From: an uncultured Prevotellaceae bacterium
GTDB taxonomy: Bacteria > Bacteroidota > Bacteroidia > Bacteroidales > Bacteroidaceae
Assembly: GCA_902776195.1 (NCBI GenBank)
Contig: CACYPF010000023.1
Span: 1-64,000, forward strand
Length of the DNA stretch: 64,000 nt
Direction: 5' to 3'
Part shown: positions 21,096 to 25,223 of the stretch, piece by piece
How the letters are laid out: every line of letters starts with the position of its first letter
How positions within the stretch are numbered: the first letter of the stretch is position 1
Translations under genes and position numbers: made by a program
Notes under the pieces: model-generated
Told to the model about the DNA's origin: nothing
Seen by the model: only the letters and a program-made list of their open reading frames with translations
Databases searched by the model: none

Positions 21096-21248
21096 CCATT
21101 TCGACGCAATGGTTAAAACAAGCGTCAGCCAACTGAGCGCAGGACGGACACAAGCCCTTATCCAGCAGCCTCGGCTTCCTTTTTCTTTTTGATAGTGGAA
21201 AAGAACAAGGAAGCGAAAAAGAAGCCGCCTGAAGCGACAACTCAAAAA

Positions 21249-21962
21249 TTAGTTTCCTAACACTCTCAATGCAAAAGCACCTAATAAAATGGCAATGGTG
21301 AAACTTGACAGCGTACCTATCATTACATATTCGGTGATTTTCACTTCCCTTGCCTTTGTCAGTTCTCCAAAACGGAAGATGGATTTTGCCGCAAGCAGGA
21401 AGCCGATTCCCTCCATGCAGCCAACGAGCATAAAAGTCAGTATCAGCACCCTTTCAAGGTAGCCAATCCATGCGCCGGCATTAGGCAGACTGTTCTTGTC
21501 ATTATTCGATGGTGTCCACTTTGCGATGAATGTTCCAAGCAGTATGGATGCAGGCTTCAATGCCAGCATATAGCACAAGGCAACTATCCATACCCGATAG
21601 TCCGAAAACCATTCTGCGCTAATGCACATGTCAGTATCAGTCAACCATACCCACAATCCACAGATAATTGCCAGATGCAGCAACTGGTCTGTAATGAACA
21701 TCCAAAGTGAGCCACTGCCGATGGCAGATTTGGCATAGTCTATCAGATAATGCGTAAAAAACACTATGACAGGTATCTGCCAGCATTCCCACAAAGCGGC
21801 AAACAGCCAGGCCAACAGGGCATTGATACCACTGTGAATGGCAAGATAGCCAAGACGTCTGGCCCCCTTTGCATATTTACCCTCGCATATTTTGTCTGTC
21901 TGAAGAAAGAAATCACCGACAATATGGGCTGCAAGCAGTTTGAGAAGTATGAGTATGTTCAT
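21249..21962 (-). CDS. DUF3307-type integral membrane protein
   Basis: 237 residues with six or seven hydrophobic segments. The N-terminal LLAAHIVGDFFLQTDKICEGK and the following IHSGINALLAWLF and FFTHYLIDYAK carry the conserved His, Asp and Gln pattern of DUF3307. The C-terminal half adds a helix pair after ITEYVMIGTLSS. Its function is unknown. The start overlaps the SatD-like gene by 4 bp, so the two are translationally coupled and almost certainly act together. The polar residues in the first helices could form a site for a small ligand, but that is inference. Confidence 0.85.
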   Translation of the reverse strand: MNILILLKLLAAHIVGDFFLQTDKICEGKYAKGARRLGYLAIHSGINALLAWLFAALWECWQIPVIVFFTHYLIDYAKSAIGSGSLWMFITDQLLHLAIICGLWVWLTDTDMCISAEWFSDYRVWIVALCYMLALKPASILLGTFIAKWTPSNNDKNSLPNAGAWIGYLERVLILTFMLVGCMEGIGFLLAAKSIFRFGELTKAREVKITEYVMIGTLSSFTIAILLGAFALRVLGN

Positions 21963-22603
21963 TGCTCCTTATGTTTTTTTATGATTGTTTCAAAACGGTC
22001 TGAGAATCTGACAAGCAGAGATTCCTTCGCTGATGTCAGTGTCTTGCTGACATTCTGTTGAGATTTGGCTATGGCGCTTGCAATGTTAGCCTGCGAGAGC
22101 CCTCTTCCGACAGATAGATAGACGGCATTGGCCTGATTCACGCTCCATCCTGTTATGAGGTCATCTACAAATGCTAGCCCGGCATCCAGTTCCTCATTTA
22201 CATCTTGCCAGCAGGTATTAACCGCCAGTCGGTTCTTCTCCATTGTGTCAAGTCCCCTGCCTGAAAGTTTGAAAGCCTCGCCGTCAGAAGTGACAATGCT
22301 GTCCCCCCGATAGTCTATAGTTCCTATTCCAATGGAAATTCTGGCATCCCATTCTGTTTTGGAGCCTTTTGGTGTATTGGATTTAAGCCCGGCACGCATC
22401 ATTGATGCAATCTTCAATGACATTTCCGGAGAATCAACCACTATCTGGAAACTATCTCCTCTGAACAGCTCCATACGCATTGGACTCTTGTCTTGCAGAT
22501 TTTCGACAATCTGATGCAAGACCTGTATCAACAGATCTCTCTTGTCCAGGGCTATCAACTCTGAACGGACTATATCACCTGTTATGACAGCTTTTATCTC
22601 CAT
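21959..22603 (-). CDS. SatD-like protein: cyclase-like N-terminal part and C-terminal HTH
   Basis: 214 residues. The N-terminal region has ITGDIVRSE (Asp10), ELFRGDSFQIVV (Asp50), ARISIGIGTI (about 88-96) and GEAFKLSGRGLD (108-119). The order and spacing resemble class III nucleotidyl cyclases, where two Asp residues hold the metals and a late G-x-A-x-x-A-x-R-L helix follows; whether it is catalytic is unknown. Residues 168-190 (GLSQANIASAIAKSQQNVSKTL) form a helix-turn-helix. The family name comes from the streptococcal sat locus. It is the first gene of a two-gene operon with DUF3307, preceded by three palindromes that the HTH may bind. Confidence 0.8.
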   Translation of the reverse strand: MEIKAVITGDIVRSELIALDKRDLLIQVLHQIVENLQDKSPMRMELFRGDSFQIVVDSPEMSLKIASMMRAGLKSNTPKGSKTEWDARISIGIGTIDYRGDSIVTSDGEAFKLSGRGLDTMEKNRLAVNTCWQDVNEELDAGLAFVDDLITGWSVNQANAVYLSVGRGLSQANIASAIAKSQQNVSKTLTSAKESLLVRFSDRFETIIKKHKEQ

Positions 22604-22631
22604 TTTTATCCTATCTATTGGTTGTCGGGTG

Positions 22632-22662
22632 CAAATTTACATAAAAGAATTGAGAATAACAA
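22632..22662 (-). promoter_or_regulatory. Promoter of the SatD-like / DUF3307 operon
   Basis: On the minus strand TAAATTTG (22632-22639) matches the -7 box, 28 bp from the start codon. The -33 position (about 22659-22662, TTGT) falls inside the first palindrome, so a protein bound there would block RNA polymerase. Confidence 0.6.
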
Positions 22663-22734
22663 CCATTTTTAGTTGTTTCTCTCTTTTACAACCAAAAAAG
22701 GTTGTGTTTTGACTTTACAACCAAAAAAGGTTGT
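22659..22734. promoter_or_regulatory. Three palindromic operators at exact 29-bp spacing
   Basis: Copies at 22659-22676, 22688-22705 and 22717-22734. Copies 2 and 3 are ACAACCAAAAAAGGTTGT, perfect half-sites around six A. Copy 1 is ACAACC-ATTTTT-AGTTGT with one half-site change. The starts are 29 bp apart. The array covers the -33 element of the SatD-like operon and nothing else nearby, which suggests autoregulation by that protein's HTH. Confidence 0.75.
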
Positions 22735-22803
22735 TGAAAACAAATAAATGAGCATGCCAAAAGAGTCGAATTGGCTCTTTCGCTTACTCCTATAAGATAA
22801 AAG

Positions 22804-22959
22804 CTATTTCACAAAAAATAAGTCATATTCCACCTGACTTCGGAATTTGATGGACTTCACAGGCCGACCATGCCAGCGGCAGAAGGCGATGTAGTTGTTG
22901 TAGATGTTGCTGTCTTCCCGTCTGTTCCAGAAACATTTAACCCAAAATCTTTTGCTGTT
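22804..22959 (-). pseudogene. Orphan C-terminal coding fragment
   Basis: A 51-codon open stretch on the minus strand ends with a stop and has protein-like composition: CFWNRREDSNIY, then YIAFCRWHGRPVKSIKF, then SQVEYDLFFVK. There is no start codon, and a stop lies just upstream. A short hairpin (22760-22765 with 22775-22780) lies beyond its 3' end. It looks like the tail of a lost gene. I do not recognise the family. The RM-operon promoter overlaps its 5' edge, so the RM locus may have replaced the rest. Confidence 0.45.
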
Positions 22960-22981
22960 TCAAAAAGATTTGCTAATTTTG
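22951..22981 (+). promoter_or_regulatory. Promoter of the type III RM leader
   Basis: TTTG (22951-22954), a 19-bp spacer and TAATTTTG (22974-22981), an exact consensus match. Transcription would begin near 22988, leaving a leader of about 290 nt before mod. Confidence 0.65.
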
Positions 22982-23064: not shown

Positions 23065-23228
23065 GATGTTCCGAAACTTGCAGGTAGAAAGAACATACAA
23101 CGATATAATGGACGCGCCTACTGTCATAGTGGGCGTTTTTCCGTTTTCGTTGTATAGGTTTCCTGCAAGTACCTGGAACATCAAACGGGGATTCGTCCAC
23201 GTTTTGTGTCCTTACGGGTGCTTGCAGG
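23065..23228 (+). ncRNA. Candidate structured leader RNA of the type III RM operon
   Basis: Four nested helices: GATGTTCC 23065-23072 with GGAACATC 23175-23182; ACTTGCAGG 23076-23084 with CCTGCAAGT 23162-23170; ATACAACGA 23095-23103 with TCGTTGTAT 23147-23155; CGCCTACT 23115-23122 with AGTGGGCG 23128-23135 (loop GTCAT). A second CTTGCAGG at 23221-23228 could pair with 23162-23169 instead, giving two exclusive folds 50 nt before the mod start. I see no reading frame that explains it and recognise no known RNA class. Confidence 0.6.
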
Positions 23229-23276
23229 TAATTGTTTTGTTTGGTGGCACGACGCATTATAAAACTATAATGCTAC

Positions 23277-25223
23277 ATGGCTAAATCATTGATTGAAGAG
23301 CTGCCCCGCATCGTGAGCGAGGGTCGGCGTGAGGCTGCTCAGATACTGGAGCGGCTGAGTAGTGGTACGCAGATTGGTTTGCAGACCAACGAACTGGTGT
23401 TGCCGAGTAAGGACGTGAGCGGACTGTTCAAGGGCAGTTCGCCTCAGATACCTAATGCCTTCAATATGGCGGGAGGCAATGGCGAGTGGATGAACCGTCT
23501 TATCTATGGCGATAATCTCTTAGCAATGCAGGCTCTGCTGGCTGGGGATGCCCAAACGGGATTGTTTTCGCTTCGCGGAAAAGTCGATTTGATATATATT
23601 GACCCGCCATTTGATTCGAAAGCAGATTATCGCACAAAGATTTCCTTGCCCGGAACGGATATTCAGCAGAAACCAACGGTTATTGAGCAGTTTGCATATG
23701 CGGATACATGGGAGGAAGGGACGATTTCCTACTTAAAGATGATTTATCCAAGATTGACACTTATGAGAGAGATGCTTTCAAGTTTCGGAAGTCTCTTTGT
23801 ACATATTGATTGGCATATTGGTCATTATATGAAAGTAATCCTTGATGATATATTTGGAAAAGAAAAATTCAGGAACGAGATAGTATGGCAGTATTCTGGC
23901 TGGAACAAGAAACTAAAGAATTCATTTGAAAAGCGACATGATGTAATACTTTATTATTCGTTAGATGATGAAGGACATAAATTCAATTCATATTTTGAAC
24001 AGTGGGAGTCTGAAGAGGAATATATAAAACGGAGAAAACAAAAAGCATATACCGATGAAAATGGTAGAAAATATGTAATGTCGGATGCTGGAAATGGCAA
24101 TCGAGTTAGACGATATGTTGATGAAGCAATGAAGGATGGAGTCGTTGTAGATGATGTGTGGAATCTGGATAAATTAAACAATTCTGCTAAAGAAAATGTT
24201 GGCTACGCCACCCAAAAACCAGAAGTCCTCCTCGAACGCATCATCAAAGCCTCATCTAACGAAGGTGACCTCGTCTGCGACTTCTTCGGTGGCAGCGGCA
24301 CGACGGCTGCAGTCGCCGAACGATTGGGCAGACGATGGATTACCTGCGACATCGGTAAGCCTGCTTCATTGGTGATGCGCAAGCGGTTTATCGATCAAGA
24401 GGTGAAGCCCTTCCTCTATCAGAGCATCGGTGACTACCAGAAGGAGGCCTTCCGCAACAACAAGCGCTATAAGCATGTGGGCGACTTGAGCCAAGTGGTG
24501 CTGGGGCTGTATGGAGCATTGCCCTTCACCCCAGAGCAGGCGAACGACCGTAACTTTGGATATATTAAAGGAACGCGGACATTGGTGATGGTGGATTCGC
24601 CTAATCGCCTGACAACAGCCGCTACGATTCGTCGGGCCGTGGAGGCTAAGGCCTCGTTGTTGGGTGGAGATTGGGAAAAGGTGGTCGTTTTAGGTTGGAA
24701 CTTCGCTTTCGATATCTCGCAAGCCATCCAGAAGTATCAGGACTCGAACGTGGAGGTGCTGGTGATTCCACCCGACCTGCTGGATAAACTGGCAAAGAAG
24801 GGCTACAAGAAACTGATTGACGACAAGTCGGTACGCTTCTCGTCGCTGCAATACTTAGTGGCGAAGCCGCTGGTAGTGAAGCAGCAGGGCGAGCAGGATG
24901 AGATAGACGTGGAGTTAGAGAACTACGTGTTGCTGTCGCCCGACAACATCCCATTGGACGATAAGGACAAGGAGAAACTTCAACAGGTGTTGGAGTGTGA
25001 CCCGCTTTCGCTGATAGAGTACTGGAGCATCGACCCTGACTACGACGGGGTGACCTTCCGCTCAACATGGCAGGACTATCGTGAGAACGTAGATAATGAC
25101 AACGACCCGCTACATTGTGTCTATAAGACGCGACTGAGAGTGGCTCATAAGGATCAACGACGGGTGTGCATCAAGGCCGTGGATGTGTTTGGTTTTGAAA
25201 GTCAAGTAGTGGAGAGCGTATGA
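23277..25223 (+). CDS. mod: Type III restriction-modification DNA methyltransferase (Mod)
   Basis: 648 residues. It is an N6-adenine (or N4-cytosine) methyltransferase of the beta order: DPPF at residues 109-112 first, then a central target-recognition region, then the SAM-binding FFGGSGTT at 336-343. It recognises the target site for the whole complex. The central part (about codons 150-310, roughly 23720-24205) is visibly more AT-rich than the flanks, with a sharp edge near 24205, which suggests an exchanged recognition domain. The stop overlaps the res start by 4 bp. The gene follows a long structured leader. Confidence 0.92.

Follow-up and report, generated by a model that had tools for sequence, protein, structure and literature searches.

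Introduction

SatD (PF16264) and DUF3307 (PF11750) are uncharacterised Pfam families, the second a domain of unknown function. According to PMC11323703, sat genes are tied to acid tolerance in Streptococcus mutans, and in Streptococcus pyogenes satD is accessory, being carried by 178 of 249 genomes, yet reported as essential whatever the strain or condition used in the transposon studies. The passages that mention satD in papers on S. gallolyticus and S. suis offer no mechanism for it, and neither a cyclase ancestry, nor an operator array, nor a shared partner module was found for SatD in searches of the open-licence PMC literature. Two better described arrangements couple a nucleotide enzyme to a membrane protein. 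In Pycsar (PycC with PycTM) the nucleotide activates, and PycC enzymes hold metal by means of two aspartates (PMC11224242); in Panoptes (mCpol with 2TM-beta) a nucleotide cyclase holds a toxic membrane effector in check (PMC12657230).

The locus described here brings SatD and DUF3307 together in one module that occurs in Bacteroidota, in Pseudomonadota and on a haloarchaeal plasmid. It consists of a regulator, ORF1, and a membrane protein, ORF2. ORF1 belongs to the same superfamily as SatD, and the partner of SatD-proper genes carries the same C-terminal module as ORF2, but ORF1 itself is not matched by PF16264. DUF3307 forms the front half of ORF2, whereas the part common to partners across the group is the C-terminal module, which lies outside the PF11750 model. 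The metal aspartate pair of class III cyclases (PF00211; Ma1120, 3mr7) and its flanking strands align with ORF1, which nevertheless lacks a PF00211 match, does not conserve the asparagine or, in most cases, the arginine of these enzymes (see below), and has an HTH fused to it. As in Pycsar, a class III-like domain goes with a membrane partner, but ORF1 and ORF2 form a self-regulated operon with an HTH. The likeness to Panoptes, in which a nucleotide enzyme likewise restrains a membrane effector, is one of working logic; mCpol is Cas10-related. The reading we favour, at a probability of roughly 0.5, is that ORF1 is a nucleotide- or metal-dependent autorepressor restraining a membrane effector, the pair travelling as a mobile two-gene module.

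Results

The locus and its operators

The window, that is, the whole 64,000-nucleotide stretch of DNA analysed, comes from an uncultured Prevotellaceae bacterium. A sequence-only reading of it had described two overlapping genes, the first with class III cyclase-like motifs and the second encoding a DUF3307 membrane protein, behind three phased palindromes of which the first covers a -33 box. All of these features were found again (Table 1), with one mismatch in operator 1. The reading frames overlap by 4 bp; Asp10, Asp50 and the GEAFKLSGRGLD motif are present in the ORF1 translation; and ORF2 scores 66.3 bits against PF11750 (cut-off 23) and has six hydrophobic segments according to a hydropathy script. 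The TAnnTTTG -7 box and the -33 TTG upstream of ORF1 constitute what we take, from the consensus, to be a Bacteroidales-type promoter. A lone operator half-site, GGTTGT, is found at 22620-22625, between the -7 box and the ORF1 start codon.

Table 1. Features of the module and its surroundings, in window coordinates.
Feature	Position	Strand	Description
ORF1, SatD-superfamily regulator, 214 aa	21959..22603	-	class III cyclase-like domain ~1-130 and C-terminal HTH ~150-205
ORF2, membrane partner, 237 aa	21249..21962	-	DUF3307 front half 5-110 and shared C-terminal membrane module ~160-237
-7 element TAAATTTG (TAnnTTTG)	22632..22639	-	
-33 element TTG	22660..22662	-	within operator 1
Operator 1, ACAACC-N6-AGTTGT	22659..22676	.	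one mismatch; holds the -33 TTG
Operator 2	22688..22705	.	exact palindrome
Operator 3	22717..22734	.	exact palindrome
Whole operator array	22659..22734	.	76 bp; starts 29 bp apart
Stretch absent from near relative G035	21096..22912	.	~130 bp there instead; pair and operators as presence/absence unit

Operators 2 and 3 are the sole exact ACAACC-N6-GGTTGT sites in the whole 2.97 Mb genome, so that regulation is probably local. With one mismatch allowed, the genome holds 8 sites against 13 for a reversed control pattern; a lone loose match thus carries no meaning, and it is the array that counts. Chance palindromes were also considered, and rejected as an explanation: within the window, the single-site pattern with up to three mismatches gave 26 matches against 24.5 expected. 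Because single sites are not enriched, an array statistic was used instead (see below).

The sequence-only reading had placed a restriction-modification locus beside the module; PADLOC matches it to type III restriction-modification models. By eye, the stretch at 23066-23284 seems to hold inverted repeats of the TTGCAGGTA type; it lies outside the module, between it and the type III methyltransferase gene.

Pairing of regulator and membrane partner

ORF1 and ORF2 constitute a widespread two-gene module. Relatives of ORF1 were found in 8 of the 100 genomes searched at E<=0.001 (the source genome, with two copies, included), in 16 plasmid records and in 104 of 395 Bacteroidota genomes; DUF3307 is present in 94 of these 395, and many Bacteroidota chromosomes carry a single copy of the ORF1-like gene. 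A SatD-like gene lies within 400 bp, directly 5', of 90 of the 95 DUF3307 genes listed from the 395 genomes, with SatD-like rows taken down to E 6.5e-30 only; around each of the other five, the 3.5-4 kb retrieved contained no SatD-like gene. At 60 loci (L088-L147), comprising 958 neighbouring proteins, the membrane partner is the only family constantly found beside ORF1: it formed a cluster in 56 loci and was matched by the partner profile in 59, while the second-commonest family occurs in 13, at scattered positions. A third component of the module was therefore rejected, no further family recurring beside ORF1 at these loci. Such tight pairing supports the suggestion that the membrane protein responds to the regulator, as do three partnerless lineages (see below). 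The genome surveys were of Bacteroidota, and other groups were sampled through plasmid and viral collections, among them the haloarchaeal plasmid with its SatD-DUF3307 pair (L207, 3974-5391). A script placed the start codons and the loci, so that some few could be misassigned.

Of the genomes with an unpaired DUF3307 gene (L209-L213, in G341, G197, G485, G143 and G218), three belong to a single family, f58. A frameshift or stop codon disrupts either the regulator or its membrane partner at L072, L084 and L087.

Constant and exchangeable parts of the partner

Loci that appeared to be orphans proved to be SatD-proper genes followed by a gene for a membrane protein. None of the five SatD-proper or short partners scanned matched DUF3307, and the notion of DUF3307 as the essential partner was abandoned on this count. 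What 14 aligned partners of the SatD-proper or short kind share with 20 DUF3307 partners is a C-terminal module, marked by the motifs G-IG-ER, AAKs-RF and EY-iGT-S, which defines a partner domain for which no Pfam match was obtained among the partner proteins scanned. Since the module is kept where DUF3307 is missing, it represents the constant part, and DUF3307 is one of several exchangeable front halves. The short partners approach the module alone (123 aa in L070; 138 aa in Sphingomonas parapaucimobilis, by eye). Very short partners, extending barely beyond the shared module, occur at L070, L072, L073 and L208.

The DUF3307 half conserves polar residues (H, D, Q and K), with H13, D17, Q21, Q93 and H96 invariant in 20 of 20 aligned sequences. 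Such a pattern would suit a transporter or a metal-dependent membrane enzyme, and ORF2 might on this account serve envelope homeostasis, with ORF1 an ordinary ligand-responsive repressor and neither toxicity nor defence involved. The ordinary-looking neighbours of the chromosomal copies (read by eye) and the acid tolerance linked to sat genes in S. mutans agree with this explanation. It sits less well with the dispensability of the DUF3307 half, given that all five scanned partners lacking it keep the C-terminal module, and the patchy occurrence of the pair, its presence on small gene-poor plasmids and a clean empty site (see below) better fit a selfish or conflict role. We regard homeostasis as somewhat unlikely, although it is the alternative that fares best, and prefer an autorepressor that restrains an effector.

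Operator arrays of fixed step and varied letters

The regions up to 220 bp upstream of related genes were scored for tandem palindromes, the offset being left free, in comparison with dinucleotide shuffles. Among 105 distinct loci, 62 had an array at p<=0.01, 76 at p<=0.02 and 80 at p<=0.05, leaving 25 with no significant array at 0.05. The step was 28 or 29 bp in 74 of the 76 loci with p<=0.02. For 32 loci that were scored twice, this tally uses offsets of 22-40 and 300 shuffles; the alternative (offsets 15-50, 150 shuffles) gives 72 of 105 at p<=0.02, 70 of them at 28/29, with three loci significant in one scoring and not in the other. The 180 control upstreams, drawn from 363 candidates after exclusion of ORFs next to arrays, gave 3 arrays at p<=0.01, with offsets of 45, 22 and 20 and thus none at 28/29; the best offset was 28 or 29 in 8 of the 180. 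In a less strict control, from which ORFs next to arrays were not excluded, 3 of 100 reached p<=0.01 (offsets 28, 22 and 28). In 40 of the 105 loci a TAnnTTTG box occurs no more than 120 bp from the start codon, compared with 5.35% of random 120-bp stretches.

The letters of the operators vary widely between loci (ACAACC, GTAACC, TTAGCC, TATATG, TATCGG and TATAAG are examples), making this an unusual case in which spacing is fixed while the operator sequence diversifies. The sequence-only reading had taken homologues lacking the palindrome as grounds for giving it up. The ACAACC letters are indeed absent beyond near relatives, but 74 of 105 loci keep an array with other letters and the same step; with letters lost and step retained, that condition needs rewording.

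Covariation was analysed in 72 loci picked because their array reached p<=0.02 at a step of 28 or 29 bp. Similarity between operators followed similarity between HTH domains once cyclase-domain similarity was removed (partial r 0.203; 0 of 2000 permutations), and did not follow similarity between cyclase domains once HTH similarity was removed (partial r 0.006; 864 of 2000 permutations). Because the operators track the HTH and not the cyclase domain, ORF1 very likely binds its own array. This result, together with the restriction of the exact operator to the module locus within the genome, strongly supports the earlier view of the operon as self-controlled. An array that overlies the gene's own promoter and covaries with the HTH is what an autorepressor would be expected to present; from it we infer repression itself.

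A cyclase-like domain with a conserved metal site

No Pfam model matched ORF1 above any cut-off, and neither PF16264 nor PF00211 matched at E<=0.1. The C-terminus resembles sigma-70 region 4 (TIGR02937, E 3.3e-5), at 23.6 bits against a cut-off of 42.9. By the PF16264 model (cut-off 29 bits), ORF1 of the window is placed on a neighbouring branch of the SatD superfamily and not in the Pfam family. At E<=1, 5 of 20 ORF1-like alignment rows match this model, and the cut-off was passed by 4 of 8 relatives, namely a SatD-proper protein, L207, L208 and the DUF3307-linked L049, with scores of 111.7, 112.6, 52.3 and 37.3 bits; L019 fell below it (24.5 bits), and L040, L018 and L010 had no SatD match.

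When a profile of 20 ORF1-like proteins was compared with PDB, the five best matches were class III cyclases (E 0.001-0.003). The profile left out L013, a chance pattern match, the near-copies L022 and L024, and L006, which is without a partner; a search for related loci with it yielded no conserved stretch. In hhalign, 107 ORF1-like rows matched 28 class III domains (28 of 30 loci having an open frame, from a 41-genome Bacteroidota search) with an E of 1.5e-4, for a single comparison, and a probability of 51%. D10 and D50 of ORF1 pair with the class III metal aspartates in both comparisons, and the cyclase rows of the profile alignment show an N-x-A-x-R motif. The scores are modest and the likeness is carried by the first half of the domain; it supports the N-terminal domain as a distant class III relative with both metal aspartates, which provides evidence of such an ancestry for SatD.

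Among 100 distinct partnered rows, 99 retain D10, all 100 retain D50 and 99 retain R88, the sole D10 exception being L072, whose N-terminus lies in another reading frame. (A fuller set of 103 included near-copies of one locus; L078, at a contig end, was placed in neither partner group, and L084 and L087, with interrupted partner genes, were counted as partnered.) In class III cyclases an asparagine and an arginine act in the transition state. The asparagine column of ORF1 is variable (V, I, H, R, T, Q, Y, K), and the arginine is kept in 43 of the 100 rows. The near-invariance of the aspartates shows strong constraint on the metal site, while the variability at the other two positions gives no indication of classical cyclisation. 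The description of ORF1 as cyclase-like thus stands as regards distant homology and an intact metal site; the suggestion that it makes a nucleotide is left unproven by the transition-state residues.

These data bear on a second explanation, in which a nucleotide made by ORF1 would open ORF2, as in Pycsar, or restrain it, as in Panoptes, with the HTH tuning dosage. The near-invariant aspartates, the class III homology, the membrane partner and the loss of Asp10 where the partner is missing (see below) all speak for a signal-producing cyclase, and Panoptes (PMC12657230) sets a precedent for a cyclase restraining a toxic membrane effector. The variable asparagine and the incompletely kept arginine speak against it. 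In addition, no PADLOC family, the PycC and Pycsar effector models included, matches ORF1 or ORF2 at E<=1, and the Pfam matches of the partners scanned include no named nucleotide receptor domain. We consider synthesis of a signal improbable, and binding of a metal-nucleotide by an autorepressor the better account of the conserved site.

Lineages without a partner

A partner is genuinely missing from three loci, namely L006 (G066:C19), L068 (G116) and L080 (G424). In these, D10 is replaced by E, K and H, and no significant array was detected (p 0.17, 0.53 and 0.93; L006, rescored as L136, gave p 0.06). They represent three changes on the tree, the placement of L006, on a long branch, being unsure. 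Since Asp10, array and partner are absent together in 3 of 3 lineages, metal site, array and membrane protein may be viewed as forming one unit; the cases are few but point one way. At L078 no partner is seen, but the contig ends there, and D10 and the array are kept.

Mobility and neighbourhood

G035, the nearest relative found, has no ORF1 match in its genome. Its ZIP protein is 98% identical to that of the window and the flanking blocks show 83-96% DNA identity; ~130 bp replace the stretch listed in Table 1, with the ZIP gene on one side and the restriction locus on the other as in the window. Dependence of the pair on the restriction locus was discarded, that locus being present in G035 although the pair is not. 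A transposon was discarded as well, there being no direct or inverted 10-mers common to both flanks. A repeat search did return an imperfect inverted pair flanking the module (21184-21204 and 22948-22968; 21 nt, 81% complementary), which, being A-rich and having its right arm also in G035, was not taken as the ends of an element.

Of the 16 plasmid records with an ORF1 match, 6 are 3770 bp long, and larger plasmids carry matches too. One of the 3770-bp plasmids encodes, besides the pair, only Rop, MobA and one hypothetical protein, although its gene table may be incomplete. The pair also occurs on IMG/VR contigs, beside an integrase-like gene in L027 and beside tail-fibre, UmuDC-like and ParAB-like genes in L026 (by eye); the viral scans gave five distinct contigs overall. 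No match to ORF1 at 1e-5 or to ORF2 at 1e-3 was obtained in the phage collection, nor any match to the pEC34A pair in E. coli genomes. We regard the module as mobile and self-contained. Maintenance of plasmids or elements by a toxin-antitoxin-like pair, with ORF1 as antitoxin and repressor, would accommodate the small plasmids, the contigs with phage-like or integrase-like genes, the self-regulated operon and a satD that is essential though accessory (PMC11323703, as above), but it is the least probable of the explanations considered, for no toxin family is found among the partner matches, many copies are single and chromosomal, and the operon order and array are unlike those of typical small toxin-antitoxin pairs as generally known.

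A defence role, raised earlier from the adjoining restriction locus, finds a mixed response. PADLOC identified GajB near the Enterobacter kobei copy, and PycC, a 2TM effector and a ThsB-like TIR protein near the copy of Sphingomonas insulae, whose pair adjoins the Pycsar locus. These defence-adjoining copies are 2 of 11 plasmid records examined, and no genes are listed in two of the 11. The PADLOC scan covered 7 neighbour proteins chosen from 4 plasmid records; 4 of the proteins matched and 3 did not. Some copies thus lie beside Pycsar, Gabija or restriction genes, which is suggestive, but the neighbours of chromosomal Bacteroidota copies look ordinary by eye, and give no pointer to a harmful effector, and G035 has the restriction locus without the pair. 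Defence may be regarded as possible. At L012 (25-2611), a Prevotellaceae locus, the pair is accompanied by a type I-like methyltransferase gene and one resembling DUF1016, both recognised by eye.

A model for the module

In the autorepressor model, the cyclase-derived domain of ORF1 most likely still binds a metal-nucleotide. Dimers of ORF1, to judge from the covariation, would bind at least two palindromes at the 28-29 bp spacing across the operon's promoter. Cooperation between dimers along the DNA is probable, and the position of the operators suggests that bound ORF1 shuts the operon off. ORF2 would be a membrane effector whose C-terminal module is constant and whose front half, in this case DUF3307, can be exchanged, and the regulator would keep it rare, and probably inactive, for as long as the nucleotide site is satisfied. 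A shift in nucleotide state, for which infection, envelope stress or pool stress are conceivable triggers, would lift repression and allow the membrane protein to act on the envelope. An essential yet accessory satD is what would be expected if satD restrains a harmful partner, and Panoptes indicates that restraint logic of this kind exists; polar or metabolic reasons for the essentiality are possible instead. The puzzle can now be put as a direct question, namely whether the membrane partner is harmful without satD.

It seems conceivable, if rather speculative, that the module goes further and acts as a guard in the manner of Panoptes, equipped with a gene switch of its own. In that case the cyclase-derived domain would read or maintain a nucleotide and silence a potentially lethal ORF2 both at the protein and at the promoter, and an attack on that nucleotide by a phage or another element would free ORF2. 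Were this true, streptococcal SatD and its partner would be a guard of the same type, which would explain a satD that is essential yet often absent, and the variation of the letters at an unchanging 28-29 bp spacing would prevent copies that coexist from silencing one another. The source genome offers an example in its two module copies, whose operators differ: the second (L128; G000:C1:134001-154000) has an operator of the ATCAA...TTGAT type. By eye, this copy adjoins an apparent tyrosine integrase gene.
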